Assembly: GCF_024171925.1 (NCBI RefSeq)
Contig: NZ_JAMTCO010000006.1
Coordinates: 372,001 to 436,000 of the forward strand
Origin: Actinokineospora diospyrosa
GTDB taxonomy: Bacteria > Actinomycetota > Actinomycetes > Mycobacteriales > Pseudonocardiaceae
Length of the DNA: 64,000 nt
Reading direction: 5' to 3'
The notes under the pieces are model-generated. The model did not search any database. It worked only from the letters and a program-made list of their open reading frames with translations, and had not been told where the DNA came from. The position numbers were made by a program, and so were the translations under genes. Shown in pieces: positions 1 to 23,700 of this stretch. How positions within the stretch are numbered: position 1 is the stretch's first letter; each line of letters begins with the position of its first letter.

Positions 1-3000
1 GCCGCGGCCCAGCCCGCCGGGTCGCGCAGCGACTCGCCCGTGTGCCAGGTGCCGGTGCGGGTGGACACGAACGGCACCGTGGCGTCGGCGAACCGGGTTG
101 AGCGCACGGCGTCGGCGAACACCGGCACCGCGCCGGACATCATCGCCGAGTGGAACGCGTGGCTCACGGTCAGCGCCGTGTGCCGGTGCGCCGTGGCGGC
201 CAGGTACCGCTCCAGCGCCGGACGCGGCCCGGACACCGTGGTGTTGGTGGGCGAGTTGAGTGCCGCCAACTCCACTTCGGGGTGCTCGACCAGCTCCGTC
301 AACACGACCGAAGCGTCGGCGTGCACCACCGCCATCGCGCCGCCCACGGGCTGTGCGGCCATCGCCGCACCGCGGCGCACCGCCAGCTCGATCAGGTCCG
401 CCAGGGTCAACACGCCTGCCGCATGGGCTGCGGCGAGCTCCCCGACGCTGTGACCGGCGACGACATCAGGCACGACTCCCCAGCCCGCCAGCAGGCGAAC
501 CAGCGCGGCCTGCACGGCCACGATCGCGACCTGGGCGTGCTCGGTCCTTGTCAGTTCCTCCTCCGGCGCGGCGAACACGAGATGCCGCAAGTCCTTGCCC
601 AGCAACAGCATCGCCAGGTCTGCGCACTCGTCCAGCGCGGCCCGGAACACCGGCTCGCTGTCGTAGAGCCCGCGCGCCATGCCCGGGTACTGCGAGCCCT
701 GACCGGTGAACAGGAACGCCACCGGCGCCTTCGCGCTCGACCGGACCACCGGCCGGTCCCCACCGCCCACCGCCCGCAGTTGGGTGGCGAGGTCGGCGCG
801 ATCGCCCGCCAAGACCGCCGCCCGGAACCGGTGCTCGGCGCGGCCCGCGTTCGCGGTGTGCGCGAAGTCGACCAGCTCGGTACCCGGGTACCGGTCGAGG
901 TGATCGGCGTAGTGCGAGGCCAGTGCGCGGACCGCGTTCTCGGTCGCGCCGCTGACCCTGACCAGCGTGGTGTCCTGAGTGGACACCTCGCGGGCCGCCT
1001 GGGGTGGCGGCTCCTCCAGCACGACGTGGGCGTTGACGCCACCCATGCCGAACGCGGAGACAGCCGCCCGCCTCAGGGTGTCCGACGTCCACTCGTGCAG
1101 CCGGTCGGCGATGTAGAACGGCGTGTCCTCGAACCGGATGTGGTCGTTCGGCCGGTCCACGTGCAGCGTCGGCGGGATCTGGCCGTGCTCCATCGCCAGC
1201 AGCACCTTCACCAGCCCGGCGAGCCCGGCAGCCGGTTCGAGGTGGCCGATGTTGGACTTCAGCGACCCGATCGCGCAGTACTGGGTGCGATCGGTGTGCT
1301 TGCGCCAAGCCTTGGTCAGGCCCTCGACCTCGATGGGATCACCGAGACCGGTGCCCGTGCCGTGCGCCTCCAGCATCCCGATGGTCTCCGGGTTGACGCC
1401 CGCCCGGGCCAGGGCAGCGGAGATCACGTCGTGCTGCGCCGCGCTGCTGGGCACCGTCAACCCGCTCGTGCGGCCACCGTGGTTGACCGAGGTGCCCTTG
1501 ATGACACCGCGCACCCGGTCCCCGTCGCGCAGGGCAGCCGCCAGCGGCTTCAACACCACCGCCACCACGCCCTCACCGGGGGCGAACCCGTCGGCGCCCG
1601 CGTCGAACGCCCGCGACGCGCCGGTGCGGGAGAACGACCGCAGCCGCGACCCCAGCTGGAAGTAGTGCGGCGACAACGCCAAGTGGACACCGGCGACCAC
1701 GGCCTGCTCGCACTCGCCGTCGTGCAGGCTGCGCACGGCGGTGTGCAGGGCGACCAGCGACGACGAGCACAGGGTGTCGATGGTCATGCTGGGGCCGGTG
1801 AGGTCCAGGAAGTGGCTGACCCGGTTCGCCAGGATGGCGTTGTGGTTGCCCAATCCGGCCGCGGTCTGCACGACGTCACCGACGACCTGGTCGCGGTAGT
1901 GCTGGTAGCTGGCACCCACGAACATCCCGACTGAGCGGCCAGACCGCCCCGAGATGCCCGCGTCCTCCATGGCCCGCCACACGACGCGGAGCAGGTGCCG
2001 CTGCTGGGGGTCGATCCACCGCGCCTCGGCGGGCGCGATGCGGAAGAAGCCCGCGTCGAACCCGGTCAGCTCGTCGACGAACCCGGCGCGGCGCAGGTAA
2101 ACCGTGCCGGGACCGGAGTCCTCGGCGTAGTAGGCGTCCAGGTCCCACCGGGACCGGGGCACCTCGGTGAGGCAGTCCTCGCCGCCGGTCAGCACCCGCC
2201 ACAGCTCCTGCGGGTCGGCGGCGTTCGGGAACACCCCGTCGAAGCCGATCACCGCGATGTCGGTACCGGTGATCTCGGGGTGCTCGGGGGCGGCGGATGC
2301 GGGGTTGGTGAACGCGGGTGTGCCCAGGGGTCGGTCAACGGCGGAGGTCGAGGGCTGGGCGACCTCCGCCACCGAAGGGTCCTGGCCCGCTCCGTTCATT
2401 GCGGGGATCCCGGCGGGCGCAGCAGCTACGTCGGGTACGGCGGTGACGCCGTAGCCCTCGCGCAGTTCGGCGACCAGCGCGTCGACCGTGCCGACCTCCA
2501 GGACCAGGGTGACCGGGATGTCCACGCCGAGCCGGGCGCGCAGGTCCTGCGCCAGCGACACGGCGACCATCGAGTCCAGGCCCTGCTCCTCCAGCGGCCG
2601 GTCCCGCTCCAACGCGGCGGCGTCGGTCTCCAGCGCCGCGGCGACCCACTGCGTCACCGCGGCGGCCAGCGCCCCACCTACCCGGACGACCGGTGCGACC
2701 GGCGGCTGAACGGCGACGACAGGCGCGGGTTGGATCGGTGTCGGTGCCTCGACGCGTTTCCACGTCACCCCACGAGCGATCAGCACCGGCGTGGCCCCGT
2801 CGAAGATCACCAGAGACGCGGTCAGCAGACCCGACCCCTCGCGATCACGGACCGCTTGGACCCGTGCCGTGGCGGGCACAGGACCGAGAACCGACAGCCG
2901 CTGCAACGCGAACGGCACGTGCAGGCCCTGCGCGCCGCAGGCGGCCAACGCGACCTGGAACGCGCCATCGAGCAGCCGGGCGTCCACAATCCCGTTCGCC

Positions 3001-6000
3001 GCGTCGACGTGGATGGTGCCGGTGGCGAACCCGTCCCCGGCGGACAACGCCGTCACGCAGCGGTATCCAGGGCCGTAGGCCAAGCCCGCCTCGGCGAAGT
3101 CCCGGTAGAACCGCGCCAGGTCGACCGATGCGGCCGGGAGTTCGGGGATCGTCGGCACCTCAGCCGACGGCTCCTCGACCCGGGCGTCGCACACCGTTGT
3201 CCCCGCGCTGTCGCGGAAGACGACCGCGTCGCCGTCGATCCGGCCGGTCAGCGAACCGGGGGAGCGGACGGAGTCGCGCAGCGTGAGGTCGCGCAGCCCG
3301 AAGCGGGTCCGTCCGACCAGCTCGGCGACCTTGCCCGGGTACGCCGCACCCGGCAGGGTCGGGATCCCGCGGACCACGTGCTCGACCGCCTCAGCCAGGT
3401 CCGGCCACGTCCGGGTCCGCTCGACCGGCTGCTGCGGCTCGACCACCCGGGGCTCCAGCCACAGGTGCTGCTCCTCGTGCGGCGCCGTGGGGAACCGCAC
3501 CGCCGCACCACGCGGGCGCACCGGCAGGTCACCACCCGCCGCGAAGCCACTCGCGGCCCGCTCCAGCGCCTTCCGGTCGCCAGCGGGTTCGGCGAGGGAT
3601 GGGCGACCATCCCCGGCGACACCCAAGTGCAGGCGAGCGCCGACGACGTCAGCCAGGAACAGCATCAGCTTGTCTTCGAGCTGCTCGGCCGAGTCGACGA
3701 CGCACGCCAGCCGGTGGGCCAGAGGCACCCGCTCCCGGCTCGCCGACGCCAGCGCGGCCAGCGGCGGGCAGTAAGGCGCGCGCAACATCCGGACCAACCG
3801 GTCGGCCAAGGTCCGCAATGCCGGGGCCGACGCGGCGGACAGCACCACCAGGTGCGGTCCGGGCGAGTCGGCGATCGGGCGGTCCGGGGCCGCGGCGAGC
3901 ACGGCGTGCGCGTTGGAGCCGCCGAAGCCGAAGCTGCTCACCCCCGCCACCCGCGGTCCGGTCCACGGCACCAGCCGGTCCGGCACGAACAGCGGCGAGT
4001 CCTCGAAGGCGAACGCCGAGGTCGGCGCGCTCAGGTTCGCCGACGGCGGCACCTGACCCGCCTGCACCGCGAGCACGGCCTTGATCAACCCGGCCACGCC
4101 CGCCGCGGGCTCCAGGTGCCCGACGTTGGTCTTCACCGACCCGACCGGCACCGAACCCGGCGCCGCCCCGGCCAGCGCCGACCGCAGCGCCTCCAACTCG
4201 ATCTGGTCGCCGAGCCGGGTCCCGGTCCCGTGCGCCTCCACGTACCCGATGCCGGAACCGTCGATCCCGGCGACCGTGTGCGCCCGCCGGATGACGGCTT
4301 CCTGGGCGGTCGCGCTGGGGGCGGTCAGGAACCCGCCGCCACCGACGTGGTTGACGGCCGTGCCGCGAACCACAGCGAGCACCGGGTCGTTGGCCGCGAT
4401 CGCGTCACTGAGCCGCTTGAGCACCAGAACACCAGCGCCCTCGCCGCGCACATAACCGTCAGCGGCCTCGTCGAACGCCCGGCACTGGCCCGTGGGGGAG
4501 AGCATGCCGTTGCGGGCGAACGACCGTGTCTTGGTCGGGGTCAGCACCAGGTTCGCCGCGCCCACCACGGCCGCGTCCAGCTCGCCGGTGCGCAGGTGCA
4601 GCGCCGCCATGTGCAGGGCCACCAGGGAAGACGAGCACGCGGTGTCCACCGCGACGCTCGTGCCCGACCAGCCGAACACGTGCGAGAGGCGGTTGGCCAG
4701 CATGGACAGCGCGGTGCCGGTGGCCACGTGCGGGTCGGCCGAGCCGATGCTGCCCGCCACCAACTCGGGGAAGTCGCTGGAGATCGTGCCGACGAACACG
4801 CCGGTCCCCGCGCCGAGCGACCGGGCGTCGTGCCCGGCGCCCTCGAGGGCCTCCGCGGTGACGCTGAGCAGCAGCCGCTGCGCCGGGTCCAGCCTGCGCG
4901 CCTCGCGGGTCGTTAGGCCGAACCGCGCCGGGTCGAACCACTCGACCCGCTCCAGCCAGCCGGTCGGGACCTCGTCCTCGTCGGTCCACAGGTGTGCCCA
5001 GCCGCGGTGGCCCTCGGGGGCGGCACCGACGGAGGACAGGCCCGCGGCCAGGTTCGACCAGAACTCGTCCGGGGTCGCCGCGCCGGGGAACCGGCACGCC
5101 ATCCCGATGATCGCCAGGTCCTGGTCCCGCGGGTCCGGCCGCACCGGTGCGATCACCTCGGTCGCGCACACCGCGACGACCGGCTCCGGTGTGGCGGTCG
5201 CCACGGGTTCGGGCTCGGGTGCTGTGGGCTTGGGCGCTGCCGGTTCGGGAGCTGTGGAGCTGCCGCCGAGGAGGTCGGCCAGCTTGGTGGGCGTGCCGGT
5301 CGCGAACAGGGCGGGTGGGGTGATGTCGATGCCCAACCGCTTGCCCAGCGCGATCGCGGCGACCGGCGCGGACGCCGAGTCCCCGCCCAGGTCGAAGAAG
5401 TTGTCGTGCACGCCGAACTCGCGGTGCCCCAACACCTGCGCGAACACCTCGGCCACCACCGCTGGGAGGTCCACAGTGGATGACTCGGCGACAGGAGGCG
5501 CGGCGGGTACCGGCACCGTTGCGCGCACAGGTACCTGCACAGGCACGGCTGCCTGCTCGGGGATGGCAGCCTGCTGGGGGATTGCGACGGGCTCGGTGCG
5601 CAGCACGGTGTCGCGGGTCGGCACCGGCAGCAGCTTGCGGGCCACCTTCCCGTTGTCGGTCAACGGGAGTGCGGCCAACACGAGGTATGAACCGGGAACC
5701 ATGTACTCGGGCAGCCGGGCCGCGACGAACGCGTCCAGCTCGACCTTGCCCGGTACCCGGTCACCGACCAGGTACGCGGTCAGCCTCGGCTCACCGTTGC
5801 CCTCGAACGGCACCGCGACCACCGCAGCGGCGGCCACGCCGGGGACCTCGGCCAGCACGGACTCGACCTCGCCGGTCTCGACGCGGTTGCCGCGCACCTT
5901 GACCTGACCGTCGATCCGGCCCAGCCACTCGATGGTGCCCTTGTCGTGCGCGCGAACCAGGTCGCCGGTGCGGTAGAGCCGTTGGCCGCCACGGGTCACG

Positions 6001-8699
6001 AACGCCTCGGCCGTGCGGTCCGGCCGGTTGCGATACCCGCGGGCCAGTTGCGCGCCGGACAGGTGCAGCTCACCCTCCACGCACGGGTGCCCGTCGTGGT
6101 CGAGCACGTGCAGGCCGACCCCGGGCAGCGGGGTGCCGAGCGGGAGGAACGACCCCACGGTCTCGACCCGGTGCGCGGTGACCCAGATGGTGGCCTCGGT
6201 CGGCCCGTAGAGGTTCCACAGCGCCGCGCCGGTCGCCAGCCGCCGGGCCAGCGCGGGCGGCAGCGCCTCGCCGCCGGAGCACACCGTCAGACCGGCGTGC
6301 GGGGTCCAGTCCAGGTCCAGCAGCAACCGCCACAGGCTCGGCGTGGCCTGGGCGATCGTCGCCCGCGAGACCAGTTCGACCAGCCGGGCCGGGTCGGCCG
6401 CCTCGGTGCGCGAGGCCAGCACCACGGTCGCGCCCGTGGTGAGCGGGAGCAGCAACTCCATCAGCGAGATGTCGAAGGCGGTGGTGGTGTGCGCCAGGAC
6501 GCGGTCGTCCTCGGTGATCCCGAGCCGCTGCGCCATGCCGACGAGGAAGTTCGCCAGGGCGGCGTGCTGGATCTCCACGCCCTTCGGCTCACCGGTGGAA
6601 CCGCTGGTGAACAGGACGTACGCCAGGTCGTCGCCACCGACGGCAGGCGGGATCGCCAGCGCGGACCCGTCGTCGACGCCGATCTCGGCCGCCCCGAGCG
6701 GTTCGGCGGCGGTCCTGGTGTAGGAATCGGTGAGCACGAGGTCGCACCCCGCCACCGCCGCGTAGCGGGCCAGCCGCTCCGCCGGGAAGCCGGGGTCCAT
6801 CGGGAGCATCGCGGCGCCGACCTTGAGCACGCCCAGCATCGCGGGCAGCAGCTCCGGGCCGCGCTCGGTCAGCACGCCCACCACGGAGTCGCCGTCGATG
6901 CCCTCGTCGTACAGGCGGGTCGCGATCGAGTCCGACCAGGACACGAGCTGCGCGTAGGTGAGGTCACCGCGCGAGGTCTGGACCGCGACCGCGTCCGGCT
7001 GGGCAGCCGCCGCGGCCGCGATCAGGTCCAGCACCGTCGCCGGGACCCGCGGCTCCTCGGCAGCGATCTCGGCCGGTTGCGCGATGGGCTCGGGCTCGGG
7101 CAGTTCGACGACGTGCGTGGTCGTCGGGGCCGTGCCGTGCACCAGGTCGCTCAACGCCAGGTCCTCGATCCGGTCGACCAGGTCGAACACCGCGTCCTGG
7201 GCCATCGCCGTCTCGCGCACGAACAGCGTCGGCGGCAGCCCGGCGCGGCACAGCAGCGCGAACTCGGTGTCGGCGTCGACCGACGCCTCTTCGTCGTCCT
7301 CGCGCTCGAGCACCACGATCCGGGTGAAGGTGGGGCCGTCGGCGCCGTGCGTGCGGCGCAGCAGACCGAGCCTCAGCTCCAGGTCCGTGGCGTAGCCGAG
7401 CTTCCCGGCTGCCTCGCCGAACCGGGCGGGCAGGTCTTCGGGCGCCTCGGCGTCGTACCCCACCGGCACGCGCGGGGAGGCCAGCCCCAGCGTGGCGTCC
7501 GAGCGCGACAGCAGGGTCGAGGTCGTCCAAGAGAAGTCGAACCGCGGCTCGCCCATGTGCTCGGCCAGCACGGCGAGAAACGTCCCGATGAACGCCCGGG
7601 TCTCGTCCTGGTCGGTGGGGACGTACGCGAGCTCGCAGCGGTGGTAGTGCGCGGTCGCGGCGGAGAAGTCCTTGGCGGGCACCGGCGCGGGCCGCAGGTG
7701 GGCCAGCCGCTCGCGCCACCACGGCTCGTGGCGGCGCAACGGGGCCAGCGCGTCCGCGATGGACGCCAGCAGCTCTGGGTCGGCCGCCGGGACCGCCGCG
7801 CCGAGGGTGATGCCCAGCCGCTGGGCTGCGGCCCGACCGGTCAGGGCGGTGCCGTCGACGGCGGTCAGGTCGCTGATCACCAGGTCGGCCGTGGGAGCGG
7901 CCAGCTTCAACGCGGACTCGGTCGACGCGGCGGCCACCAGCCCGGTCGTCGTGCCCTCGCGCGGGATCCGCCGCACCTGCTGGATGAACACCGCGCCGAG
8001 CGGCGTCACCACGGCCGGGATGCCCAGCGGGTTGGGGAAGGACCCGAAGTCCATGGCCTTGCTGATCCGCTCGGCCTCGATGGCGTCGGTGCCCGCGTGG
8101 ATGAGGCCGGGCACCCGGTCGGCGCGCCGGTAGAACCGCCGCTCCCGGTCTGAGGTGTCGACGGGCTCGGGCAGCGTGCCCGCCGCCAGGTGCGGCACCA
8201 GGTCCTCGAACAGCGCGATCCCGACCTCGGCCGCCTCGTAGGTCAGCGACAGCGCCGTGGAGTGCTCGCGCACCGGGAACCAGCGCTCGGCCAGCACCGG
8301 GCCCGCGTCCACCGCGGGCACCATCGCGTGCCAGGTCGCCGCGTGCCGGGCCGCGCCCTCGTAGATCGCCCAGGCCGCGACGTTGCTGCCGCCGTAGCGG
8401 GGCAGCGGGCCGTCGTGGAAGTTGATCGCCGCGACCCGGGGCAGGGCGAGTTCGGCCGCGGTGAGCAGCCGGAAGTTGATGACGCTGACCAGGTAGTCCA
8501 CCGGGTTCCCGGCCAGCAGCGCGGTGAGGTCCGCGGTCGGCGCCAGCACCGGGATGTCCCGCTCGGCCAGCCAGGCCGCGAACACCGGGTCGTCGGTCAG
8601 CACCGCGCGGACCAGCACCCCGGCCTCGACCAGCCGGGCGGTGACCCGCAGCGCCACGCGCGTGCCGCCGAGGACCACACAGTCGACGCTGTCGGTCAT
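1..8699 (-). CDS. Hybrid NRPS-PKS, partial: FT-A-PCP-KS-DH-ACP-KS-AT (C-terminus off the left edge)
   Basis: One open frame of about 2,899 residues starts with ATG at 8699, overlapping the upstream stop by 4 bp (ATGA), and runs off the left edge. Domains in order: Fmt-like formyltransferase (1-~240; INFHDGPLP gives N93 and H95, D131 follows in VPAVDAGP); an unassigned stretch (~240-545); adenylation domain (~555-1030; LFTSGSTGEPKG, NLYGPTE, NGK near the end); PCP (LGGDSAS, ~1103); KS1 (DTACSSSL, C~1355; HGTGT; NVGHLE); DH (HVVRGIPTLP, H~1774; LLDGAFQ, ~1910); ACP (GLDSM, ~2040); KS2 (DTLCSSSL, C~2311); AT (GQGSQ, GHSVGE ~2750, HAFHS ~2847). I read the A-domain code as D-I-M-Q-C-G-L-I-W, close to glycine codes. 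HAFHS points to malonyl-CoA. KS1 is followed by DH with no AT or KR. The likely role is to load glycine, N-formylate it and extend with malonyl units; oxazole formation is inference. Confidence 0.93.
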   Translation of the reverse strand, partial: MTDSVDCVVLGGTRVALRVTARLVEAGVLVRAVLTDDPVFAAWLAERDIPVLAPTADLTALLAGNPVDYLVSVINFRLLTAAELALPRVAAINFHDGPLPRYGGSNVAAWAIYEGAARHAATWHAMVPAVDAGPVLAERWFPVREHSTALSLTYEAAEVGIALFEDLVPHLAAGTLPEPVDTSDRERRFYRRADRVPGLIHAGTDAIEAERISKAMDFGSFPNPLGIPAVVTPLGAVFIQQVRRIPREGTTTGLVAAASTESALKLAAPTADLVISDLTAVDGTALTGRAAAQRLGITLGAAVPAADPELLASIADALAPLRRHEPWWRERLAHLRPAPVPAKDFSAATAHYHRCELAYVPTDQDETRAFIGTFLAVLAEHMGEPRFDFSWTTSTLLSRSDATLGLASPRVPVGYDAEAPEDLPARFGEAAGKLGYATDLELRLGLLRRTHGADGPTFTRIVVLEREDDEEASVDADTEFALLCRAGLPPTLFVRETAMAQDAVFDLVDRIEDLALSDLVHGTAPTTTHVVELPEPEPIAQPAEIAAEEPRVPATVLDLIAAAAAAQPDAVAVQTSRGDLTYAQLVSWSDSIATRLYDEGIDGDSVVGVLTERGPELLPAMLGVLKVGAAMLPMDPGFPAERLARYAAVAGCDLVLTDSYTRTAAEPLGAAEIGVDDGSALAIPPAVGGDDLAYVLFTSGSTGEPKGVEIQHAALANFLVGMAQRLGITEDDRVLAHTTTAFDISLMELLLPLTTGATVVLASRTEAADPARLVELVSRATIAQATPSLWRLLLDLDWTPHAGLTVCSGGEALPPALARRLATGAALWNLYGPTEATIWVTAHRVETVGSFLPLGTPLPGVGLHVLDHDGHPCVEGELHLSGAQLARGYRNRPDRTAEAFVTRGGQRLYRTGDLVRAHDKGTIEWLGRIDGQVKVRGNRVETGEVESVLAEVPGVAAAAVVAVPFEGNGEPRLTAYLVGDRVPGKVELDAFVAARLPEYMVPGSYLVLAALPLTDNGKVARKLLPVPTRDTVLRTEPVAIPQQAAIPEQAAVPVQVPVRATVPVPAAPPVAESSTVDLPAVVAEVFAQVLGHREFGVHDNFFDLGGDSASAPVAAIALGKRLGIDITPPALFATGTPTKLADLLGGSSTAPEPAAPKPTAPEPEPVATATPEPVVAVCATEVIAPVRPDPRDQDLAIIGMACRFPGAATPDEFWSNLAAGLSSVGAAPEGHRGWAHLWTDEDEVPTGWLERVEWFDPARFGLTTREARRLDPAQRLLLSVTAEALEGAGHDARSLGAGTGVFVGTISSDFPELVAGSIGSADPHVATGTALSMLANRLSHVFGWSGTSVAVDTACSSSLVALHMAALHLRTGELDAAVVGAANLVLTPTKTRSFARNGMLSPTGQCRAFDEAADGYVRGEGAGVLVLKRLSDAIAANDPVLAVVRGTAVNHVGGGGFLTAPSATAQEAVIRRAHTVAGIDGSGIGYVEAHGTGTRLGDQIELEALRSALAGAAPGSVPVGSVKTNVGHLEPAAGVAGLIKAVLAVQAGQVPPSANLSAPTSAFAFEDSPLFVPDRLVPWTGPRVAGVSSFGFGGSNAHAVLAAAPDRPIADSPGPHLVVLSAASAPALRTLADRLVRMLRAPYCPPLAALASASRERVPLAHRLACVVDSAEQLEDKLMLFLADVVGARLHLGVAGDGRPSLAEPAGDRKALERAASGFAAGGDLPVRPRGAAVRFPTAPHEEQHLWLEPRVVEPQQPVERTRTWPDLAEAVEHVVRGIPTLPGAAYPGKVAELVGRTRFGLRDLTLRDSVRSPGSLTGRIDGDAVVFRDSAGTTVCDARVEEPSAEVPTIPELPAASVDLARFYRDFAEAGLAYGPGYRCVTALSAGDGFATGTIHVDAANGIVDARLLDGAFQVALAACGAQGLHVPFALQRLSVLGPVPATARVQAVRDREGSGLLTASLVIFDGATPVLIARGVTWKRVEAPTPIQPAPVVAVQPPVAPVVRVGGALAAAVTQWVAAALETDAAALERDRPLEEQGLDSMVAVSLAQDLRARLGVDIPVTLVLEVGTVDALVAELREGYGVTAVPDVAAAPAGIPAMNGAGQDPSVAEVAQPSTSAVDRPLGTPAFTNPASAAPEHPEITGTDIAVIGFDGVFPNAADPQELWRVLTGGEDCLTEVPRSRWDLDAYYAEDSGPGTVYLRRAGFVDELTGFDAGFFRIAPAEARWIDPQQRHLLRVVWRAMEDAGISGRSGRSVGMFVGASYQHYRDQVVGDVVQTAAGLGNHNAILANRVSHFLDLTGPSMTIDTLCSSSLVALHTAVRSLHDGECEQAVVAGVHLALSPHYFQLGSRLRSFSRTGASRAFDAGADGFAPGEGVVAVVLKPLAAALRDGDRVRGVIKGTSVNHGGRTSGLTVPSSAAQHDVISAALARAGVNPETIGMLEAHGTGTGLGDPIEVEGLTKAWRKHTDRTQYCAIGSLKSNIGHLEPAAGLAGLVKVLLAMEHGQIPPTLHVDRPNDHIRFEDTPFYIADRLHEWTSDTLRRAAVSAFGMGGVNAHVVLEEPPPQAAREVSTQDTTLVRVSGATENAVRALASHYADHLDRYPGTELVDFAHTANAGRAEHRFRAAVLAGDRADLATQLRAVGGGDRPVVRSSAKAPVAFLFTGQGSQYPGMARGLYDSEPVFRAALDECADLAMLLLGKDLRHLVFAAPEEELTRTEHAQVAIVAVQAALVRLLAGWGVVPDVVAGHSVGELAAAHAAGVLTLADLIELAVRRGAAMAAQPVGGAMAVVHADASVVLTELVEHPEVELAALNSPTNTTVSGPRPALERYLAATAHRHTALTVSHAFHSAMMSGAVPVFADAVRSTRFADATVPFVSTRTGTWHTGESLRDPAGWAA

Positions 8700-9892
8700 G
8701 ACCGGGCCGCCCCCGTGCCGGTGACGCCCGCCCCGGTCTGCTCCGGCGCGGTCTGGCCCGGTTGGGTCAGCCGGGCCACCCACTCGTCGATCTGGGAGAC
8801 GACTTCCTCGTCGAGCGAGAGCTGCCCCGGCGACCACATCGGGTTCGACAGGCCGCGGTGGGTGCGCTCGCAGAGCTCCCAGTCCTCGTAGTTCGCCTTG
8901 TCCCACAACGCGAACACGGCCTCGTGCGAGAAGTCCGGCTTGGCCGTCTCGCTCGGGTGGAACAGCCAGAAGTGCCGCACCGTGCAGGTGCCGGGGCTCT
9001 CCGGCCAGACCCACTGCATCATCACGTAGTCGGCGGTGAACCCGAACAGCAGGTTCGGCAGGATGGTGATCCAGTTGATCTTGTGCAGGTCGCCCGGCGG
9101 CACCTTGGGCATCGGCGCCCGGTCGCTGCGGCCGGTCATCGACACCGAGTTGTACTTCGACCGGATCACCTGCCAGGCCCCGACGATGTCGCCGCGCAGC
9201 TCGTAGGTGCCCGCGTCGTCGAAGTCGGTGATCTTGTGCAGGTCCTTGTGCGCGGTGGGGAAGTGCAGGCTCTCGTTGACGTTGTGCGCCACCAGCTTCC
9301 AGTTCGAGGCCACCGGGTAGTCCTTGGCCTGCGCGCACACCAGCGACTCCAGGTCGTAGACCTCGGCGAAGCGGCCGAACTCGCCGAGCGCCTCGTCGAG
9401 GTCACCGGCCTCGTCGGAGAAGGCGACGAACACCACACCGAAGCGGACCTCGGTGCGCACCGGGATCAGCCCGTTGTCCTCTTTGGCGAAGAAGTGGTCG
9501 AGGTAGGTCCCGTTGAGGCTCTTGAGCTTGCCGTTGCGGTCGTAGACCCAGCAGTGGTAGATGCACACGATGCTCTGCCGCTTGCCCGCGGGCTCCTCGA
9601 CGAGCTTGTAGCCGCGGTGGCGGCAGTAGTTGTGGTAGGCCTGGATCCCGTTGTCCCCGTTGAGGAGCAGGATCGAGCCGCTGCCGATGTTGAGCGTGGC
9701 GTAGGACCCCTTCTCGGGGAACCGGGACACGTGGTCCACCGGCAGCCACTTCTTGCCGTACACCCGTTCCATCTCCAGCCGGAACTGCTCCTCGCCGGTG
9801 TAGAACGCGTGCGTGCGGCCCCGACCCCCGGTGGCGAAGTACGGGCGGTCCTCGTCCTGCTCGCTGATCAGGTCGAACATGCTGTTGGTCAT
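8696..9892 (-). CDS. Rieske non-haem iron oxygenase (alpha-subunit type)
   Basis: This 398-residue protein has an N-terminal Rieske [2Fe-2S] domain with ligands C90, H92, C110 and H113 (YCRHRG...CIYHCW). A catalytic domain follows with the mononuclear iron motif NVNESLHFPTAHKDLH (E207, H210, H215) and an acidic residue further on (YEDWEL). Proteins of this family use O2 and electrons from a reductase to hydroxylate, desaturate or demethylate small molecules; no reductase gene is visible here. The stop overlaps the ATG of the synthase by 4 bp, so the two are translationally coupled and this is probably a tailoring enzyme of the cluster. A GAGGAG ribosome-binding site lies just upstream of the ATG. 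The substrate cannot be read from sequence. Confidence 0.92.
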   Translation of the reverse strand: MTNSMFDLISEQDEDRPYFATGGRGRTHAFYTGEEQFRLEMERVYGKKWLPVDHVSRFPEKGSYATLNIGSGSILLLNGDNGIQAYHNYCRHRGYKLVEEPAGKRQSIVCIYHCWVYDRNGKLKSLNGTYLDHFFAKEDNGLIPVRTEVRFGVVFVAFSDEAGDLDEALGEFGRFAEVYDLESLVCAQAKDYPVASNWKLVAHNVNESLHFPTAHKDLHKITDFDDAGTYELRGDIVGAWQVIRSKYNSVSMTGRSDRAPMPKVPPGDLHKINWITILPNLLFGFTADYVMMQWVWPESPGTCTVRHFWLFHPSETAKPDFSHEAVFALWDKANYEDWELCERTHRGLSNPMWSPGQLSLDEEVVSQIDEWVARLTQPGQTAPEQTGAGVTGTGAARS

Positions 9893-10003: not shown

Positions 10004-11248
10004 TCAGGCGGTGGGGTCGTAGATGCGCTTGGCCTCGGGGAAGCCCGCGTCCTCGTAGATGCGCTCGAGGTTGTCCGGCGAGAAGATCTCGTGGTCCTCG
10101 ACGCCGCCCGCGATCAGGCCGAGCATCTTGTTGGTCCAGTGCGGGGTCTTGCCGATCGCGCGCAGCACCGCGTCGAAGAACGGCGGCAGCTCCATCGAGG
10201 CCATGACCGTGGTGAAGTCGTAGACGCCCGCGCTGATCTCGTCGCGGATCTTGACGTACTCCTCCAGCGCGTCGGCCATCGCCCGCTCGCCCGCCAGGCC
10301 CTCGTGCGCCCGGTCGGCCAGCAGTTCGGCGTGCAGGAACGCGTCGGTGATGCCCCAGCCGGTGATCGGGTCCTTGTGGTAGCCGGCGTCGCCGACCAGC
10401 GCCCAGCCCGGGCCGTGCGCGCGGCGGTAGTAGTTGTCCGGGTAGCGCATCGGCCGCAGCGGCTCCGCCCGGCGCGCGGTGTCGCGGAACTGGGCGCCCA
10501 TGGCGGGTTCGACGTCGTCGATGACGGCCTGGAAGGCGGTCTCCGGGTCGGTGCGGAACTCCTTGAGCTGGTCGAGCGCGCAGATCGTGGCGACCATGGT
10601 CAGCCCGTCGTTGGTCGGCCAGGAGCCGAACCAGCGGTGGTTGAAGCCGGTCTTGTGGTGCAGGCCCCAGTCGTCCACACCGGAGAAGTAGGAGTAGTAG
10701 ATGAACCCGGCGGCGGGCCGCACGTTGTACAGCTCGGCGCCCACCCGCTTGGCCACCTGCGAGTGCGTGCCGTCGGCGCCGATCACCAGCCGCGCCCGCA
10801 GCTCGCGCACCTCGCCGTCGCCCTCGCGCCCGCGCACGCCCAGCACCTCGCCGGACTCGCCGAACACCAGGTCGGTCACGGTGAACTGCTCCACGACCTC
10901 GGCCCCGGCGCGGCGCGCCGCGTTGACCAGGATCTCGTCCAGGACGGTCCGCCGGGGGCAGTAGACGGCATCGATGCCCTCGATCGGGTCAGCGAACCCG
11001 ATCAGGTCGATGTCGCCGTGCCGGTAGTTCATCAGCCGGATGGCCGGGGTCCCCGCCGCGACGACCTCGTCGAGCAGCCCCCACTTCTGCAGCTGCACCA
11101 GGCCCGCCTGGTGGATGTAGTGGGTCGAGACCGCGTCGCTGGGGAAGGAGCCCCGGTCCAGCACGAGGACGCGGTGCCCGTGCTTGGCCAGCAGCATGGC
11201 CGTGGGCGCACCGGCGACCCGGGCACCGACGATGATGACGTCGTACAA
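10004..11248 (-). CDS. FAD-dependent monooxygenase / oxidoreductase
   Basis: The protein opens with a Rossmann dinucleotide fold (YDVIIVGARVAGAPTA). It has a mid-chain GADGTHS motif and the flavin-binding GWALVGDAGYHKDPITG segment, the order seen in p-hydroxybenzoate-hydroxylase-like flavoproteins and related halogenases. The FxGWxWxIP halogenase signature was not seen, so a hydroxylase or epoxidase role is more likely. I chose TTG at 11248 because it places the Rossmann strand at residue 2 and an AGGTGG site about 8 nt upstream. GTG at 11260, or ATG at 11320 (438 residues), are alternatives. A 111-bp gap separates it from the Rieske gene on the same strand. It is probably the first tailoring gene of the cluster in this window. 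Confidence 0.87.
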   Translation of the reverse strand: MYDVIIVGARVAGAPTAMLLAKHGHRVLVLDRGSFPSDAVSTHYIHQAGLVQLQKWGLLDEVVAAGTPAIRLMNYRHGDIDLIGFADPIEGIDAVYCPRRTVLDEILVNAARRAGAEVVEQFTVTDLVFGESGEVLGVRGREGDGEVRELRARLVIGADGTHSQVAKRVGAELYNVRPAAGFIYYSYFSGVDDWGLHHKTGFNHRWFGSWPTNDGLTMVATICALDQLKEFRTDPETAFQAVIDDVEPAMGAQFRDTARRAEPLRPMRYPDNYYRRAHGPGWALVGDAGYHKDPITGWGITDAFLHAELLADRAHEGLAGERAMADALEEYVKIRDEISAGVYDFTTVMASMELPPFFDAVLRAIGKTPHWTNKMLGLIAGGVEDHEIFSPDNLERIYEDAGFPEAKRIYDPTA

Positions 11249-11961
11249 GGCGAGGTCCACCTCTCCGAGGTTGGTTGGCTGCACCCACCGCGGCGCCCGG
11301 TGGGCGCTACAAAGCGCCACACCTGGTCGTGCTCGCAGGGGTGCTGGTGTGCGGGGGAATGGCGGTCTGGGCCGACTTCGATGTCGAGCCCGTTAACGAC
11401 GCGTTGCCGTGGAGACCACGGGAACCGTTGTCGCGGTGGGTGATCGACGCGGACGCCGATGTGTCTGGAGGTCGCCCAGTTGGTGTGGGCGGTGTGTCCG
11501 TTCACTCCCGATCGTGCGATTCGAGTGAACCATGAGGCGCGCGCTCAATGCACCTATTGTGGGCAAATTGGGCCAAAGGGAGCACGGGCGTGCCGCGGCG
11601 GTCGCTGCCGGTGTCCTAGGAGGTCTGTTGTGCACCGAGCGGAGTAGCGGTGGTCCACGATGGATCGCTTTAGCGCCAACGGCTCTGGCGGTCAAGGGGC
11701 GTGCTGGGTGGACGGTGCGGGAGCGTATGCGGTACCGATTCGTGTTTGAGGCTTGTGATCGTCTACTTGGGTTTGTGAACCCCTATTGAGTGGTGGGGTA
11801 CCGGTATGTGGGTGGGTTATAGGGGTAATGGGGTCGGCTCGCCTGCGACTTCGCGGCGTGCGGGTCGGCCTCGTCGCCTGGCGGCGAGCTCGGCGACCCG
11901 GGGATCGGACGCCTCGTTGCCTGGCGGCAACATCGGGCCCGATCCGCGACAATGCGAAAAA

Positions 11962-15310: not shown

Positions 15311-15910
15311 ATGGCGATCCTGCTCTCCGATCCGCTCGTCCACGCCGTGCGCGTGGTCGACAACGGTGACCCCCTGGTCCCACTGCCCTTCGCGTCCACT
15401 GTGGTGGTCCGCGCGGGCCTGGCGCGCAGGCTGGTGCTGGCCAGGGCCGCGCTGCCCGCCGGTGTGGACCTGCGCGTGGTGGAGGGGCACCGGTCCGTTG
15501 TGGACCAACAAGCGATCATCGACCACTACACCGGCGAACTGCGGTCCGCGCACCCGGACGCCGACGAGGTCGAGATCACCCGCCTGTACAGCCGGTTCGT
15601 CGCGCCGGTGGCGGTCGCGCCGCACGTGGCGGGCGCGGCCGTCGACCTGACCCTGGTCGACCGCGACGGCGCGGACCTGTGGCTGGGCACGCGGATCGAC
15701 GACACCCCGGAGATCAGCGGCGGCGCGTGCTACTTCCACGCCGAGGTGGACCGGGAGGCGCGCCGGAACCGGACGCTGCTCGCCCGCGTCCTCGGGAACG
15801 CGGGCCTGGTCAACTACCCCACCGAGTGGTGGCACTGGTCCTACGGCGACCGCTACTGGGCGCTGATGACCGGCGCCCGGCACGCCCTGTACGCGCCGGT
15901 GGCGGTGTGA
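15311..15910 (+). CDS. vanX: VanX-like D-Ala-D-Ala dipeptidase (M15D)
   Basis: This 199-residue protein has the VanX zinc dipeptidase signature: VVEGHRS with the transition-state Arg near residue 58, APHVAGAAVDL with the zinc-binding His and Asp near 107-114, and PTEWWHW with the catalytic Glu and zinc His near 171-174. There is no signal peptide, so it acts in the cytoplasm. VanX enzymes hydrolyse the D-Ala-D-Ala dipeptide and so deplete the normal peptidoglycan terminus. The stop overlaps the next start by 4 bp (GTGA), which couples it to an alanine racemase and a D-Ala ligase. No VanH lactate dehydrogenase is present, so this is not a standard vanHAX glycopeptide-resistance set. Confidence 0.88.
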   Translation: MAILLSDPLVHAVRVVDNGDPLVPLPFASTVVVRAGLARRLVLARAALPAGVDLRVVEGHRSVVDQQAIIDHYTGELRSAHPDADEVEITRLYSRFVAPVAVAPHVAGAAVDLTLVDRDGADLWLGTRIDDTPEISGGACYFHAEVDREARRNRTLLARVLGNAGLVNYPTEWWHWSYGDRYWALMTGARHALYAPVAV

Positions 15911-16995
15911 GCGCGGCCACGCTGACCATCGACCTGTCCGCCGTCGCCGAGAACACCCGCCGGTTCGTGCGGGCTGGATCCCCGGCGGTGCTGGCCGTGG
16001 TGAAGGCGGACGGGTTCGGGCACGGGCTGGCGGACGTGGCCAGGACGGCGGTGGCCAACGGCGCGACGTGGATCGGGGTCACCTCGGTCGCCGAAGGGGT
16101 CGCGGTGCGCGCGGCCGGGGTGACGGTGCCGGTGCTGAGCTGGCTGAACCCGGTGCAGGTGGACGTGCCGACGGTGCTGCGGCACCGGATCGACCTGGCC
16201 GTGCCGAGCGGGCGCCACCTGGCGGCCATCGTCGCCGCCGAGCCCCGGCACCCGGTCCGCGTGCACCTGCAGCTGGACACCGGCATGGCCCGCGACGGCG
16301 CGGCGCCCGAGGAGTGGGCCGGGTTGATGGCCGCCGCGCGCCGGGCCGAGGTGGCGGGCTGGGTCACCGTCGTCGGGGTCATGGGCCACCTGGCGATGGC
16401 CGACCGACCCGGGCACCCCGGCAACGCCCAGGGCAAGTCGGCCCTGCTCCGCGGCGTCGCGCTGGCCGAACAGGCCGGGCTGCGCCCGACGCTGCGGCAC
16501 CTGGCCGCGACCGCCGCGACGCTCACCGACCCCAGCGCGCACCTGGACCTGGTCCGCATCGGCGCGGGCCTGGTCGGCATCGACCCGTCCGGCAGCACCC
16601 GGCTGCGGCCCTCGCTGCGGCTCACCGCGCCGGTCGCGCAGGTCCGCCGGGTCGGCGCGGGGGTCGGCGTCGGGTACGGGCACACGGGCGTGACCGGTCG
16701 CCCGACCACGCTGGCGCTGCTGCCGCTCGGGTACGCCGACGGGTTGCCGCGGTCGGCCTCGGGGCGGGCGCAGGTGCTGGTGCGGGGCAGGCGGTGCCCG
16801 GTCATCGGGGTGATCTCGATGGACCAGACCGTGGTGGACGTGGGTGACGTGCCGGTCGAACCGGGGGACCAGGCGGTGCTGTTCGGCCCGGGCCGGGCGG
16901 AACCGGCGGTCGAGGAGTGGGCGGCGTGGGCGGGGACCATCCCGCACGAGATCGTGACCGGCATCGGTCACCGGGTGGGGCGGAGCGTGCGATGA
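15907..16995 (+). CDS. alr: Alanine racemase (PLP, fold type III)
   Basis: The 362-residue protein starts at GTG 15907 inside the dipeptidase stop. The PLP-binding Lys lies in AVVKADGFGHG near residue 34. The catalytic Tyr of the opposite face lies in GYGHTGVTG near 257. GYADGLPR and VIGVISMDQ are also typical of Alr. It interconverts L- and D-alanine; VanT-type racemases act on serine with the same fold, and sequence alone does not separate them here. Two small departures from the family norm are FG instead of AYG after the lysine and a VanX-like gene as operon partner. The stop overlaps the next ATG by 4 bp. Confidence 0.9.
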   Translation: MSAATLTIDLSAVAENTRRFVRAGSPAVLAVVKADGFGHGLADVARTAVANGATWIGVTSVAEGVAVRAAGVTVPVLSWLNPVQVDVPTVLRHRIDLAVPSGRHLAAIVAAEPRHPVRVHLQLDTGMARDGAAPEEWAGLMAAARRAEVAGWVTVVGVMGHLAMADRPGHPGNAQGKSALLRGVALAEQAGLRPTLRHLAATAATLTDPSAHLDLVRIGAGLVGIDPSGSTRLRPSLRLTAPVAQVRRVGAGVGVGYGHTGVTGRPTTLALLPLGYADGLPRSASGRAQVLVRGRRCPVIGVISMDQTVVDVGDVPVEPGDQAVLFGPGRAEPAVEEWAAWAGTIPHEIVTGIGHRVGRSVR

Positions 16996-18047
16996 CGGGG
17001 GCCGAGTCGGTGCCTACTGGAGTGGGGTCTACTGGAGTGGGGTATGCGTTGACCAGGGCGGAGTCTGTGTGGACCGGGCCGGAGCGTGTGGTGGCGCAGC
17101 GGACCAGGGTGGCTGTGATCGGCGGTGGCCAGAACGTCGAGCACGAGGTGTCGCTGGCCTCCGCCGCGTCCGCCCGGACCGCGCTCGACCCGGAGAGGTA
17201 CGAGGCGGTGGCGTTCACGATCCGCCGCGACGGGGTCTGGTGCGACGCCGCGGGCTTGCCGTTCGGCACGTCGCCCGCGTCCAGCCTCGCGGGCGCGCTG
17301 CCGGTGCTGGCCCGCTGTGAGGTCGTGCTGCCGCTGCTGCACGGCCCGCTGGGGGAAGACGGCGCGATCGCGGCGCTGTGCGAGTTGGCGGGCCTGCGCT
17401 ATGTGGGGTCGCCGCCGCGCGCGGGGGCGCTGGCGATGGACAAGTGGGCGACCAAGCTCGTGGCCGAGGCGGTCGGTGTCCGCACGGCACCGGGACGGCT
17501 CGTGACGGCGGGGGACGAGGTCGTCTTCGAGCGGCCGGTGGTGGTGAAGCCGGTCGCCGCGGGCTCGAGCTTCGGCGTGCGGCTCGTGCGCCAGTCGGCT
17601 GACCTGCGCCCCGCCCTGGATGCCGCGTTCGACCACGACGACCGCGTCTTGGTCGAACACGTGGTGACCGGCCGCGAGATCGACATCGCGATCCTCGACA
17701 CCCCCACGGGTGGCTTCCTGACCGGGCCACCGCTGGAGGTCGTGGTCACCGGCGACCTGTTCGACACGACCACCAAGTACGGCGGCGAAGCGGAGTTCCT
17801 GGTCCCTGCCCCGCTCTCGGCCGAGGAGTCGACAGCGCTGACCACCGCCGCTCATCGCGTCTACCAGGCCCTGGGCTGCCGCGGCGTGGCTCGCGTCGAC
17901 TTCTTCCTGACGGCATCGGGACCGGTGCTCAACGAGGTCAACACGATGCCCGGTATGACCGAGGCATCGCAGGTCCCGAAGATGTTCGCCGCGGCCGGGC
18001 TCCCGTACCCGGACCTGCTCGACCTCCTGCTGCGCGCGGCGAGGTGA
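16992..18047 (+). CDS. ddl: D-Ala-D-Ala ligase family protein (ATP-grasp)
   Basis: The ATP-grasp ligase has VAVIGGGQNVEHEVSL near the start, LLHGPLGEDG, VVVKPVAAGSSFGV, an omega loop with TTKYGGEAEF, and the metal-binding end LNEVNTMPGMT. The KY omega-loop signature is that of dipeptide ligases (Ddl/VanC type) rather than the RIHQE type of VanA depsipeptide ligases. It probably makes D-Ala-D-Ala or D-Ala-D-Ser. I kept ATG 16992 because it overlaps the racemase stop (ATGA). The first ~35 residues are an extra extension coded by a near-duplicate TACTGGAGTGGGGT repeat, and GTG 17089 could be the real start. It ends the three-gene operon. Confidence 0.88.
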   Translation: MTGAESVPTGVGSTGVGYALTRAESVWTGPERVVAQRTRVAVIGGGQNVEHEVSLASAASARTALDPERYEAVAFTIRRDGVWCDAAGLPFGTSPASSLAGALPVLARCEVVLPLLHGPLGEDGAIAALCELAGLRYVGSPPRAGALAMDKWATKLVAEAVGVRTAPGRLVTAGDEVVFERPVVVKPVAAGSSFGVRLVRQSADLRPALDAAFDHDDRVLVEHVVTGREIDIAILDTPTGGFLTGPPLEVVVTGDLFDTTTKYGGEAEFLVPAPLSAEESTALTTAAHRVYQALGCRGVARVDFFLTASGPVLNEVNTMPGMTEASQVPKMFAAAGLPYPDLLDLLLRAAR

Positions 18048-20306: not shown

Positions 20307-20777
20307 TCACCTGGATGGCGCGTCCGGGCAGGCGGCCGCCAACCTCGCCCGCAGCAGCGAGTAGTCTCCCGCGTTCCTCGGTGCCACCTCGGCCATGTCG
20401 GCGAAGAACCTGTCTCCCGCGGCTTTCAGGGCGGCCACGAAGTCCCCGCGGTCCACACTGGACCGCCGAACGGCCGCGCCCGCTCGGCTGGTCACCTCGA
20501 CCCGGCCGTGCCTCGCCTCGAACGAGAGCTCGATCGGCTGGTCGGGGAAGTAGGTCGACACCCGCGGTGCCGTCGTGAACTCTTCGAGCATGGTGACGAT
20601 GTAGGCCCACAGCTGGTCCACGTAGTCCCACATGGACTGGTCGATGATCTCCTTGCCGTTGAGCCGCAGTTCGATGGCGCCCTCGATGTGCGTCGGCACC
20701 GGTGGTGTCCAGGCACACCCGGCTACCGGGCGGAACTCGCCGCCCGGTAGCCGGAGGTAGGATTCGACCTCGATCAC
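20307..20777 (-). CDS. Putative immunity protein for the RHS-Hint toxin
   Basis: A 156-residue soluble protein starts at GTG 20777, overlapping the toxin stop by 4 bp (GTGA). That coupling is the usual arrangement for polymorphic toxin and immunity pairs. It begins VIEVESYLRLPGGEF and contains WTPPVPTHIEGAIEL and DQSMWDYVDQLWAYIV. No catalytic motif is visible. I do not recognise the family with certainty. The immunity role is inferred from position and coupling only. Confidence 0.7.
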   Translation of the reverse strand: MIEVESYLRLPGGEFRPVAGCAWTPPVPTHIEGAIELRLNGKEIIDQSMWDYVDQLWAYIVTMLEEFTTAPRVSTYFPDQPIELSFEARHGRVEVTSRAGAAVRRSSVDRGDFVAALKAAGDRFFADMAEVAPRNAGDYSLLRARLAAACPDAPSR

Positions 20778-23700
20778 GGTGTGGAGGGTACCGGGTAGAA
20801 CTGGCCGACTCGCCCGTTGTTGAGGCCAACCACGTACTCTTGGCCGTTGACCTTGCCGCGGACCTGGTACATGCCGCGGGATCCGCGGGTGGCCAGCGTG
20901 TCGCGGTTCTGGCTGAGCACGTTGCTGACGGTGTCCTGGACGTCGTTCACCGACATCTTCCGGTCGAGGAAGGTCTGCGTCGCCTTCACCGAGCCGTTCC
21001 AGTAGGTCGGGTGGTGGCGGGTGAGGATGTGGTCCATCCCCCGCTTGTCGAGCAGGAACGACTGGTTGCCGAACATGTACCGCTTGCTCGTCCAGTCGCG
21101 CAGGACAGTCAGGCAGTTGTGCACCAGGACCGGGGTGTCGCCCGCCAACACGTGGTAGGTGTGCCGGGTGTCCACGGTCAGGTCGTAGGTGCGCGCCACC
21201 ATCGTGCGGACGCTGGTCGAGGTGACCGCCGCACCACCGCCGGGCGACTGGAGGGGATCGCCCACGACCAGTTCGTCCGCGCGCACCCAGACACGTTTGG
21301 CCGAGTCGAACACGAGGTGGTGGTCGGTGACCACGACCTCCCCGGTGCCGACACCTAGAGCGACGTAGCGGGTGTCCTTGTCGGTGATGTGCAGCGCGGT
21401 GACCGCGTGCGACTCGAGTGCGCCGCCCGGTGCCGCGCTGGCCACCACGTCGCCGACCTCGACGTCCTCGATGGCCTTGGTGCTGCCGTCGGCCATCAGG
21501 ACCCGGGTGCCACCGACGAAGCTGTTGCACGCCGCCGGGATGATGTTCTTGCCGTAGCTCTCGGCCAGTTCCGAGAGCACGGCGCGCTCGCCGGTGCGCA
21601 CCAGGGACTTGGCGAACTTGTTCAGCTTGCCGAACGGGATGAAGTCCAGCGGGGCGGTGATGCAGGCGGCGCTGTCCTGCCCCGAGAGGCACATGAACGC
21701 GTCGTAGCCGGGCAGCAGTTGCAGGAGCACCTGGTTGTCGGTGTCGAGCAGGCCCTGCGCGAAGGACTCGAGGCAGAACGCCTCGGGCCCGGAGGTCATG
21801 CTGCCGCCGCCGCAGATCCGCTCCGCCCAGTGGTGGATGGCGAGCCCGTACTCGTTCTCCTGGTAGTCGCGCAGCGGGTAGCGCTCCTTGAGCTCCTTGA
21901 AGGTCGGGACGACGACGTCGGCGATCTTGGGCTGCTTCGACCGGTCGGTGTTCCTGCCCGTCAGGAACTCCTCGACCTCCTTCTCCTCGCGCCGCTCCGC
22001 ATCCGACGAGCACACCGCGCGCCCGGTCGAGCAGCCGACGCTGGTGTTGGCGGGTGAACCGGCGGCGCACCCGTCGCAGAACAGGCCCGTGGGGTCGGAG
22101 TGCGTCGTGGGGTTGTTGCTCGCGTACCCGTAGCCGGTCCAGGACTGCGGGTCCGCCGGGTCCAGCACCGGGTCGACCGAGGCGAAGCGGCCGAGCGCCG
22201 GGTCGTACTGCCGGGCGCCCACGTCGACCAGGCCGGTGGTGGCGTTGGTCGGCTTGTCCAGGAAGCCGTGGTTGTCCGCCCACGGGCCGCCTTGCACCGC
22301 GCCGATCGGGTTGCCGTAGGGGTCCATCTCCCGGCGCGTCTCCGCGAAGCCCACGGCCGACACCGACACCTGGGCGGTGCCGTGCTGGTCACCGTGCAGG
22401 TACTCCGGCGAACCGCTGCCCACCCGGCGGGCGACCTTGGTGCCGTTGTGGGTGTAGTACCGCGTGCCGGTGATCGTGCCGGTCGCGGTGTCGCGGGCGA
22501 ACTCCTGGCCCGGCAGGTAGAGGATCACCTTGCCCGGTTCGCGGCGGACGAGCTGGGTGCCGTCGGCGTCGTAGGTGTAGGTGGTGTCGCCCGCGGGTGA
22601 CTGGACCCGCTTGAGCCGGTTGTTCTCGGTCCAGGTCAAGGTGTGGACGGTGCCGTTGATGTCGCGGCTGGTGGTGTTGCCCGCGTTGTCGTAGGCGAAA
22701 CTGCTGCCCGTGTTGCCACCGGGGCCCGTGGTCGAGGTCGAGGTCAGCGCGTGCGGGCGGGCACCGGCCGCGGCGGGGTAGGTGTAGGTCGTGGTGGTGT
22801 CCGCTTGGCCGATGCCGTGCCGGGTCTGGCCGGTGCGCAGGCCGTTCGCGGTGAACGTCCACGACGTCCAGTACGGGTCCGGGCCGCCGACGTTCGTCGC
22901 CCCCGGTGTGGTGCTCGGCTGGCCCGCGCACCCGTCGGTCGCCGTCCACGCGGTGGACAGCCGGTTCAGGGCGTCGTAGCCGAAGCACTGGGTGCGGCTG
23001 GTGTTCGCGGGTACGCCACCGCGGGTGTTGACGATCTTGAGGAGGTTGCCCGCCGGGTCTCGGGTGTAGGTGAGGTCGTCCACCAGCGGGTTGGCCCGCT
23101 GCACCGAGAGGTTGGTGTGGTTGATCGCGTGCGTGCGCGGGTCGCGTTCGAAGGTCAGCGTGCCCGCGTTCGAACCCGAGCTGAGCAGGTACTGCGACTC
23201 CTCGCCGACCGGGCTGTAGCTCGTGCCGGACACGTAGTCCCACACGTTGCTGTAGGTCTCGGTCGGGCTCCCGTACCGGTTGAGCTTGATCGCGAGCGCT
23301 TCACCGGGGAGGCCGCCCTTGGTCGGCAGGGCGATCCCGGTCAGGTGGCCGGTGGTGGTGTAGGAGTAGGTCGTGGTGTAGAGGCCGTTGAGGCCGGTTT
23401 CTTGCGACGGGACCGACACGATGTTGTTCTGCGGCAGCCCGAGCGCGTTGTAGCCGCTGACCCCGACCTGGTAGTTGCCGTCCGCGGTGAAGCGGGTGGT
23501 CGAGGCGAGTTGGCCCGTGCCACCCGGTGCGGTGTCGAACACCCACGAAGCCAGCTTGGTCCTGGTGGCCGGTGCGGCCCCGCTGTACTCCGCCAGGCGC
23601 CTGCCCAGCACGTCGTAGTCGTAGCTGAGCACCTGTCCGCGCCCGTCGGTGGCGGTGGTGATCTGGTCGGCCAGGTCGTAGGCGCGCGTCGAGTGGCCCG

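Follow-up and report, generated by a model that had tools for sequence, protein, structure and literature searches.

A conserved FT-A-PCP loader without a nearby SGGKDS gene in a polyketide cluster of Actinokineospora diospyrosa that carries an AlkC-like gene

The closest described relatives of the loader analysed here belong to the oxazolomycin (ozm), conglobatin (cong) and phthoxazolin (ptx) clusters. In two reports, a gene for an SGGKDS ATP pyrophosphatase (CongE, OzmP or PtxD) adjoins the loader in all three clusters, and this protein is credited, though without proof, with closing the ring (PMC4504003, PMC5764310). The same reports give glycine as the substrate predicted for CongA (PMC4504003) and PtxE (PMC5764310). 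For a loader of this kind in Actinokineospora diospyrosa, a first-pass annotation had proposed that an N-formylglycyl starter feeds a KR-less KS-DH-ACP module whose DH may close a 5-substituted oxazole. An oxazole at this loader found no support in our analysis, because the SGGKDS gene is absent, the KR-less layout recurs elsewhere in the line and KS1 belongs to a different clade.

The window, by which we mean the whole analysed stretch of 64,000 nucleotides (C6:372001-436000 in an 8.1 Mb genome), opens inside the NRPS-PKS loader gene. The gene lies on the minus strand, which the first-pass annotation leaves unnamed; its start codon, at 8699, shares bases with the stop codon of the Rieske gene (ATGA), and its end (C6:371592) falls about 0.4 kb outside the window. 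A Pfam scan of the protein returned the order FT-A-PCP-KS1-DH1-ACP1-KS2-AT2, continuing past the window edge, with matches to Formyl_trans_N (aa 56-159), AMP-binding (562-889) and PS-DH (1856-1986) as well as two KS, two PP-binding sites and one Acyl_transf_1 (2662-2886). The scan detected neither a KR in any part of the protein nor an AT for module 1, the sole Acyl_transf_1 belonging to module 2. From the gene start, all on the minus strand, the formyltransferase (FT) domain (7980..8699; Formyl_trans_N, N93/H95/D131) is followed by a linker of about 305 aa that has no Pfam match and is found in relatives too (7065..7979), the glycine-type adenylation (A) domain (5610..7049; Pfam and code reading), the PCP (5250..5474; Pfam and the motif FFDLGGDS) and KS1 with its Cys/His/His (3780..5114; Pfam and motifs). 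A KS-DH linker in which Pfam detects no acyltransferase (3465..3779) leads to DH1 (approximate boundaries 2745..3410), ACP1 (2445..2684; Pfam and GLDSM), KS2 (765..2279; Pfam) and AT2 (3..734, crossing the window edge; Pfam and motif). The scan thus bears out the earlier domain reading FT-A-PCP-KS-DH-ACP without a KR. The span once given for it, 2800..8699, contains most of these domains but cuts off the end of DH1 near 2745 and leaves ACP1 (2445-2684) outside; the module layout was right but incomplete, since module 1 is also AT-less, the protein continues into KS2-AT2 and the gene leaves the window. Upstream, also on the minus strand, lie genes for a Rieske oxygenase alpha subunit (8696..9892; Pfam and PDB comparison, with NCBIfam far under cut-off) and an FAD-dependent oxidoreductase that is geranylgeranyl-reductase- or halogenase-like by profile comparison (10004..11320).

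Elsewhere the window holds a plus-strand group at 15311-18047, with genes of the D-Ala-D-Ala dipeptidase (VanX-like), alanine racemase and D-Ala-D-Ala ligase families followed by an MFS transporter, which looks like a cassette of the cell-wall remodelling or glycopeptide-resistance type. Two large RHS-repeat proteins are encoded on the minus strand, one with a pretoxin-HINT domain near its end (20774-27721) and one with a weak WXG100-like start (54970-59274). Between 40794 and 45972, acyl-CoA dehydrogenase-like, PIG-L deacetylase plus methyltransferase, and glycosyltransferase family genes lie in a row on the plus strand and are followed by a minus-strand DEAD-box helicase gene. The same genome has, on another contig, a very extensive region (C3:197000-426000) in which more than 30 KS matches fall.

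To place the loader among its relatives, an alignment of six FT-A proteins was used as query against species genomes, yielding 39 loci, of which 25 (L013-L035, L044, L049) were assigned to this cluster family by identity and context. The FT residues N93/H95/D131 named in the first-pass annotation were confirmed by a residue check and are conserved in all 28 cluster-family members (the 25 loci, the own locus, G244, a genome of the host's own genus, and G237). Code reading likewise reproduced the glycine-like A code D-I-M-Q-C-G-L-I-W, which is shared by the own locus and G244; 24 other readable members have DILQLGLIW or DILQLGLVW, two being unreadable. These codes are close to those of ten Streptomyces loaders with an SGGKDS gene (DILQLGMIW, DILQLGLIW or DILQCGLIW). 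In the PDB, the FT has relatives among sugar-amine, ArnA, Met-tRNA and glycinamide-ribotide formyltransferases. FT residues and glycine-type code together support the proposed starter, which, judged from these features, is very probably N-formylglycyl.

Whether such a starter signals an oxazole was assessed on loaders from 392 Streptomyces-genus genomes, where the FT search gave matches in 33 genomes at 35 places: 14 at 62-68% identity, representing this cluster family, 17 others at 33-38% and four weak pieces. Sixteen of the 17 divergent loci were examined (genome G342 holds one locus of each kind, and its second, lower-scoring one was left out). An SGGKDS gene lies between FT-A-PCP and the next KS in 10 of the 16. 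Because these ten were called SGGKDS type by that very gene, finding it there tells nothing independent; what counts independently is 10 of the 16 loci versus none in this cluster family. The remaining six loci have a split A domain, a glycine-type code and no SGGKDS frame within the 20 kb examined, so an FT-Gly loader does not imply an oxazole; FT-Gly loaders without an SGGKDS gene nearby are not rare. In this cluster family, a search with the OzmP-like protein of locus L119 found no match in any of 20 genomes, while all four controls matched, one of them being the source genome of the query; the proposed oxazole route is therefore missing here. No SGGKDS frame of more than 200 aa was seen in the 39 related loci (25 of this family; flanks up to 10 kb), and PF01902, tried as a tentative stand-in for CongE, gave nothing above cut-off in the own genome. 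In a tree of 76 KS rows (restricted to stop-free KSs longer than 300 aa), KS1 did not group with the ten KSs behind SGGKDS-type loaders, our stand-ins for OzmQ, which form a clade of their own. With OzmP missing and KS1 in another clade, membership in an oxazolomycin-type oxazole system was rejected.

Reading 60 kb around the loader revealed a six-module line, all on the minus strand. The FAD oxidoreductase and Rieske oxygenase genes precede FT-A-PCP-KS1-DH1-ACP1-KS2-AT2, after which come DH2-KR2-ACP2-KS3-DH3-ACP3-KS4-KR4-ACP4 and KS5-DH5-ACP5-KS6-AT6, an AlkC-like protein, DH6-KR6-ACP6-alpha-oxoamine synthase (AOS), a 99-aa protein, an HDAC-like amidohydrolase, a thioesterase-family protein and an MFS transporter. 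KR6 was called by similarity and motif, not by Pfam, and module 4 is AT-less. AT2 and AT6 both have GHSVGE and HAFH, which we take to indicate the malonyl type.

This arrangement is conserved. The Rieske gene stands directly before the FT in all 25 family loci and the FAD gene is present in 23, the contigs of the other two (L026, L033) beginning just before the Rieske gene; KS1 follows the loader in 21, the other four contigs ending first. As judged from the domains traced (ACP3, ACP4 and ACP5 lie outside the tracing), the order FAD-Rieske-PKS-AlkC-AOS-small-HDAC-MFS is complete in nine of 11 stretches: the own locus, G244, G237, CB02009, HM190, S. rimosus, MA5143a, S. neyagawaensis and, with broken frames, WAC08241. 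The cluster of adm13 is divided, its FT end and its AOS end being on separate contigs, and one half was compared. CC53 (L061-L062) shows a cluster without the middle modules, in which KS2 runs into an AT6-like domain and then AlkC; this gap is perhaps an assembly collapse between similar KS-AT copies. The thioesterase gene was present in all eight stretches looked at. The FT occurs in three of 297 genomes of the host's own family and, as this FT family, in 14 of the 392 sampled Streptomyces-genus genomes, with further loci titled Micromonospora, Nonomuraea, Microtetraspora and Nocardiopsis. One of these (L032, genome G312) is titled Microtetraspora glauca yet was drawn with the Streptomyces genus, and its title may be outdated. 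The Rieske protein is distantly like the glycine betaine monooxygenase GbcA, has one 334-member Streptomyces group and has a 95% relative in Actinokineospora baliensis. We found no description of this soil-bacterial, antibiotic-type cluster in openly licensed full-text literature.

DH1 carries the motifs HVVRGIPTLP and DGAFQ, and the earlier statement that its DH motifs are intact extends to its relatives: all 22 orthologues readable across the domain, own included, keep the His, Gly, Pro, Asp and Gln unchanged (L035 was omitted for a frame break). Its AlphaFold model is a double hotdog with a mean pLDDT of 93.9, with which the fold matches agree, so that the features of the PS-DH family (double hotdog, HxxxGxxxxP, Asp of DxxxQ/H) are all present. 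Its kin by both sequence and fold are ordinary PKS DHs, namely CurF, CurK, RzxB and AlnB; the enoyl-isomerase 4u3v from a trans-AT line is also among the fold matches. No KR was found in module 1 of the compared cluster stretches, and the scanned cluster genes included no free-standing KR or AT. The KR-less, AT-less KS-DH-ACP layout is shared by modules 1, 3 and 5, twice away from the starter; the missing KR of module 1 therefore does not point to ring closure and was rejected as proof of it. In a tree of 53 DH rows, from which a score and length filter had removed the own-genome DHs L136, L145 and L147 and most DHs of split-A loci, DH1, DH3 and DH5 each sit, with uncertain placement, on long separate stems; long branches, the DH2-DH6 pairing itself among them, are flagged by the program. 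In DH5 the motif is altered, to HxxxR and with DSVTI in place of DxxxQ; the KR-less DHs therefore cannot all be ordinary.

These data bear on the idea that DH1 itself is a cyclodehydratase which, in place of CongE or OzmP, would form a 5-substituted oxazole from 4-formamido-3-oxobutyryl-S-ACP1. The starter is that of oxazole lines, module 1 is KR-less in the compared stretches, the catalytic residues of DH1 are invariant on a long stem of its own, and no other cyclodehydratase was recognised among the cluster genes. We nevertheless consider this route unlikely: OzmP is unmatched in the 20 genomes, modules 3 and 5 lack a KR away from the starter, and DH1 resembles ordinary DHs in fold and sequence, although cyclising relatives share the fold. 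The conserved amidohydrolase would, moreover, be left with no formamide to cut. To our knowledge, no DH domain has been shown to make an oxazole. The same intermediate could undergo another five-membered closure, in which the beta-ketoacyl-ACP1 adds through C-2 to the formyl carbon, a one-carbon electrophile, and is dehydrated by DH1 to a 4-hydroxypyrrole-3-carbonyl unit; this would use both the KR-less state and an acid-base DH, and a halogenase-like FAD enzyme would suit a pyrrole. The sequence evidence does not separate this closure from the oxazole idea, we know of no precedent for it, and we regard it as very unlikely.

The KS domains speak to a further possibility, that KS1 passes formylglycine on unextended and that DH1, DH3 and DH5 isomerise or cyclise within non-extending shift modules resembling those of trans-AT lines. 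Modules 1, 3 and 5 do lack both AT and KR, and a trans-AT enoyl-isomerase is among the fold matches of DH1. KS0 domains, however, lack the His (PMC5764310), whereas the catalytic motifs with Cys and both His are kept in KS1 in eight of nine stretches (the third motif is unmatched in CB02009) and in KS3 and KS5 in eight of eight each, which makes non-extending modules improbable. The KS tree unites KS2, KS4 and KS6, all of which follow a KS-DH-ACP module, in a single clade (support 100/99) whose sister is KS3, and KS1 and KS5 fall apart from it. This clade fits like beta-states or intermediates handed on by modules 1, 3 and 5, or it may stem from duplication within the cluster.

The AlkC gene (C6:355566-356717) lies between PKS genes, and its protein matches the solved AlkC 5vi0 over its full length (E 1.9e-69, residues 14-382). 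In all nine cluster-bearing genomes searched AlkC was found at one place per genome, inside the cluster (in three pieces in WAC08241), and in none of three control genomes. Among 16 congeners a close copy occurs only in the two with the FT, and two of the 14 without it have a distant copy (39-40%). DNA glycosylases confer self-resistance in other clusters (PMC9040887, PMC8626424, PMC8934636). Since a dedicated AlkC-type glycosylase gene sits between PKS genes, we predict by analogy that the cluster product is probably DNA-alkylating, with AlkC as self-resistance; the gene's place in the cluster is suggestive, not proof.

The AOS domain belongs to the alpha-oxoamine synthase sequence family, carries the PLP lysine motif TLSK and is matched at 72-93% in 18 of 19 genomes; no close AOS was found in S. 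niveus (G302), though the FT end is present there. Given its fusion behind ACP6, it is probably a release domain. The HDAC-like amidohydrolase has its metal and tyrosine motifs, and an orthologue lies in the cluster in all eight cluster-bearing genomes tested, the other seven being 79-91% identical to the own protein. A general HDAC-like copy (34-38%) was found in all 13 genomes searched, and the cluster-less G190 has another at 48%. Conservation of the cluster gene could be explained if the glycine nitrogen bore a formyl cap that is later taken off, or by some other acyl removal. The 99-aa protein (C6:351657-351956), kept between the AOS and HDAC-like genes at 52-90% in matched pieces, had no Pfam or NCBIfam match. 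Some unrelated enzyme acting in trans, encoded within or outside the cluster, might still make an oxazole. The type of starter would suit such an enzyme, but the conserved accessory genes match other families and the 99-aa protein is the only one without an assignment, so that this explanation seems highly improbable.

Taken together, we favour, with a probability of roughly 0.45, the reading that the cluster makes a formyl-capped aminoketone polyketide, with an ordinary DH1, AlkC self-resistance and no oxazole. FT-A-PCP would form N-formylglycyl-S-PCP, as domain code and residues suggest, and the six-module line would extend this starter. The malonyl-type ATs of modules 2 and 6 and the KRs of modules 2, 4 and 6 probably serve their neighbours; with KRs shared in this way, DH1 would most likely catalyse an ordinary dehydration after borrowed ketoreduction, and a borrowed KR is our first choice for module 1, held at less than even odds. 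The PLP-dependent AOS on the last ACP would release the chain as an alpha-aminoketone, as its family implies, and the Rieske and FAD enzymes would oxidise the product. The formyl group may serve as an N-cap against early cyclisation that the HDAC-like amidohydrolase may cut at the end; the product is predicted to alkylate DNA, AlkC providing self-resistance, and an oxazole of the oxazolomycin type is not expected. Against this reading stand the long stems of DH1, DH3 and DH5, the altered motif of DH5, the lack of a free-standing KR or AT among the scanned cluster genes, and S. niveus with its FT end but no close AOS. Doubtful in our view is the combination of DH1 as a ring-closing dehydratase (oxazole or hydroxypyrrole), and hence a second independent route, with an AlkC-protected, DNA-alkylating cluster.

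The analysis corrects a tempting rule, as an FT-A(Gly) loader ahead of a KS does not alone mean an oxazole. Of greater interest is the wider cluster with its probable alpha-oxoamine release and AlkC gene, an orphan pathway that is conserved and in which AlkC hints at the target. It lets one ask about the role of KR-less KS-DH-ACP modules, about formyl as a protecting group that a PKS product could later shed and about AlkC as a possible self-resistance glycosylase.

Among known systems, the yatakemycin and azinomycin clusters likewise have a DNA glycosylase gene among their biosynthetic genes (YtkR2 and AlkZ; PMC9040887, PMC8626424), but the gene here is AlkC rather than AlkD or HTH_42. The AOS shares its sequence family with serine palmitoyltransferase, BioF and KBL and is here fused behind a PKS ACP. 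The split-A Streptomyces loaders (L126, L130-L134) are alike in having an FT and a glycine-type A code before a PKS, with the SGGKDS frame absent in the stretch examined. Unlike the loader described here, they have a 1.3 kb gap in the A domain and no Rieske, FAD or AlkC match. These loaders run from FT and gapped A domain into PCP-KS-AT and may start from N-formyl-N-methylglycine; in L130, the only split-A locus scanned, the gap holds a methyltransferase. With OzmO-OzmP-OzmQ, CongA-E-B and PtxE-D-C, our loader shares the order FT-A(Gly)-PCP then KS, the glycine-type code and the N/H/D of the FT. It differs from these oxazolomycin, conglobatin and phthoxazolin systems in having no OzmP/CongE/PtxD gene, and its FT is 32-38% identical to those of the ten SGGKDS-type Streptomyces loaders that stand in for the Ozm, Cong and Ptx proteins. 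Whereas PtxC is described as a minimal module (PMC5764310) and CongB as having KS1 then ACP (PMC4504003), in the present module 1 KS1 is followed by a DH, and a single protein contains both loader and KS.
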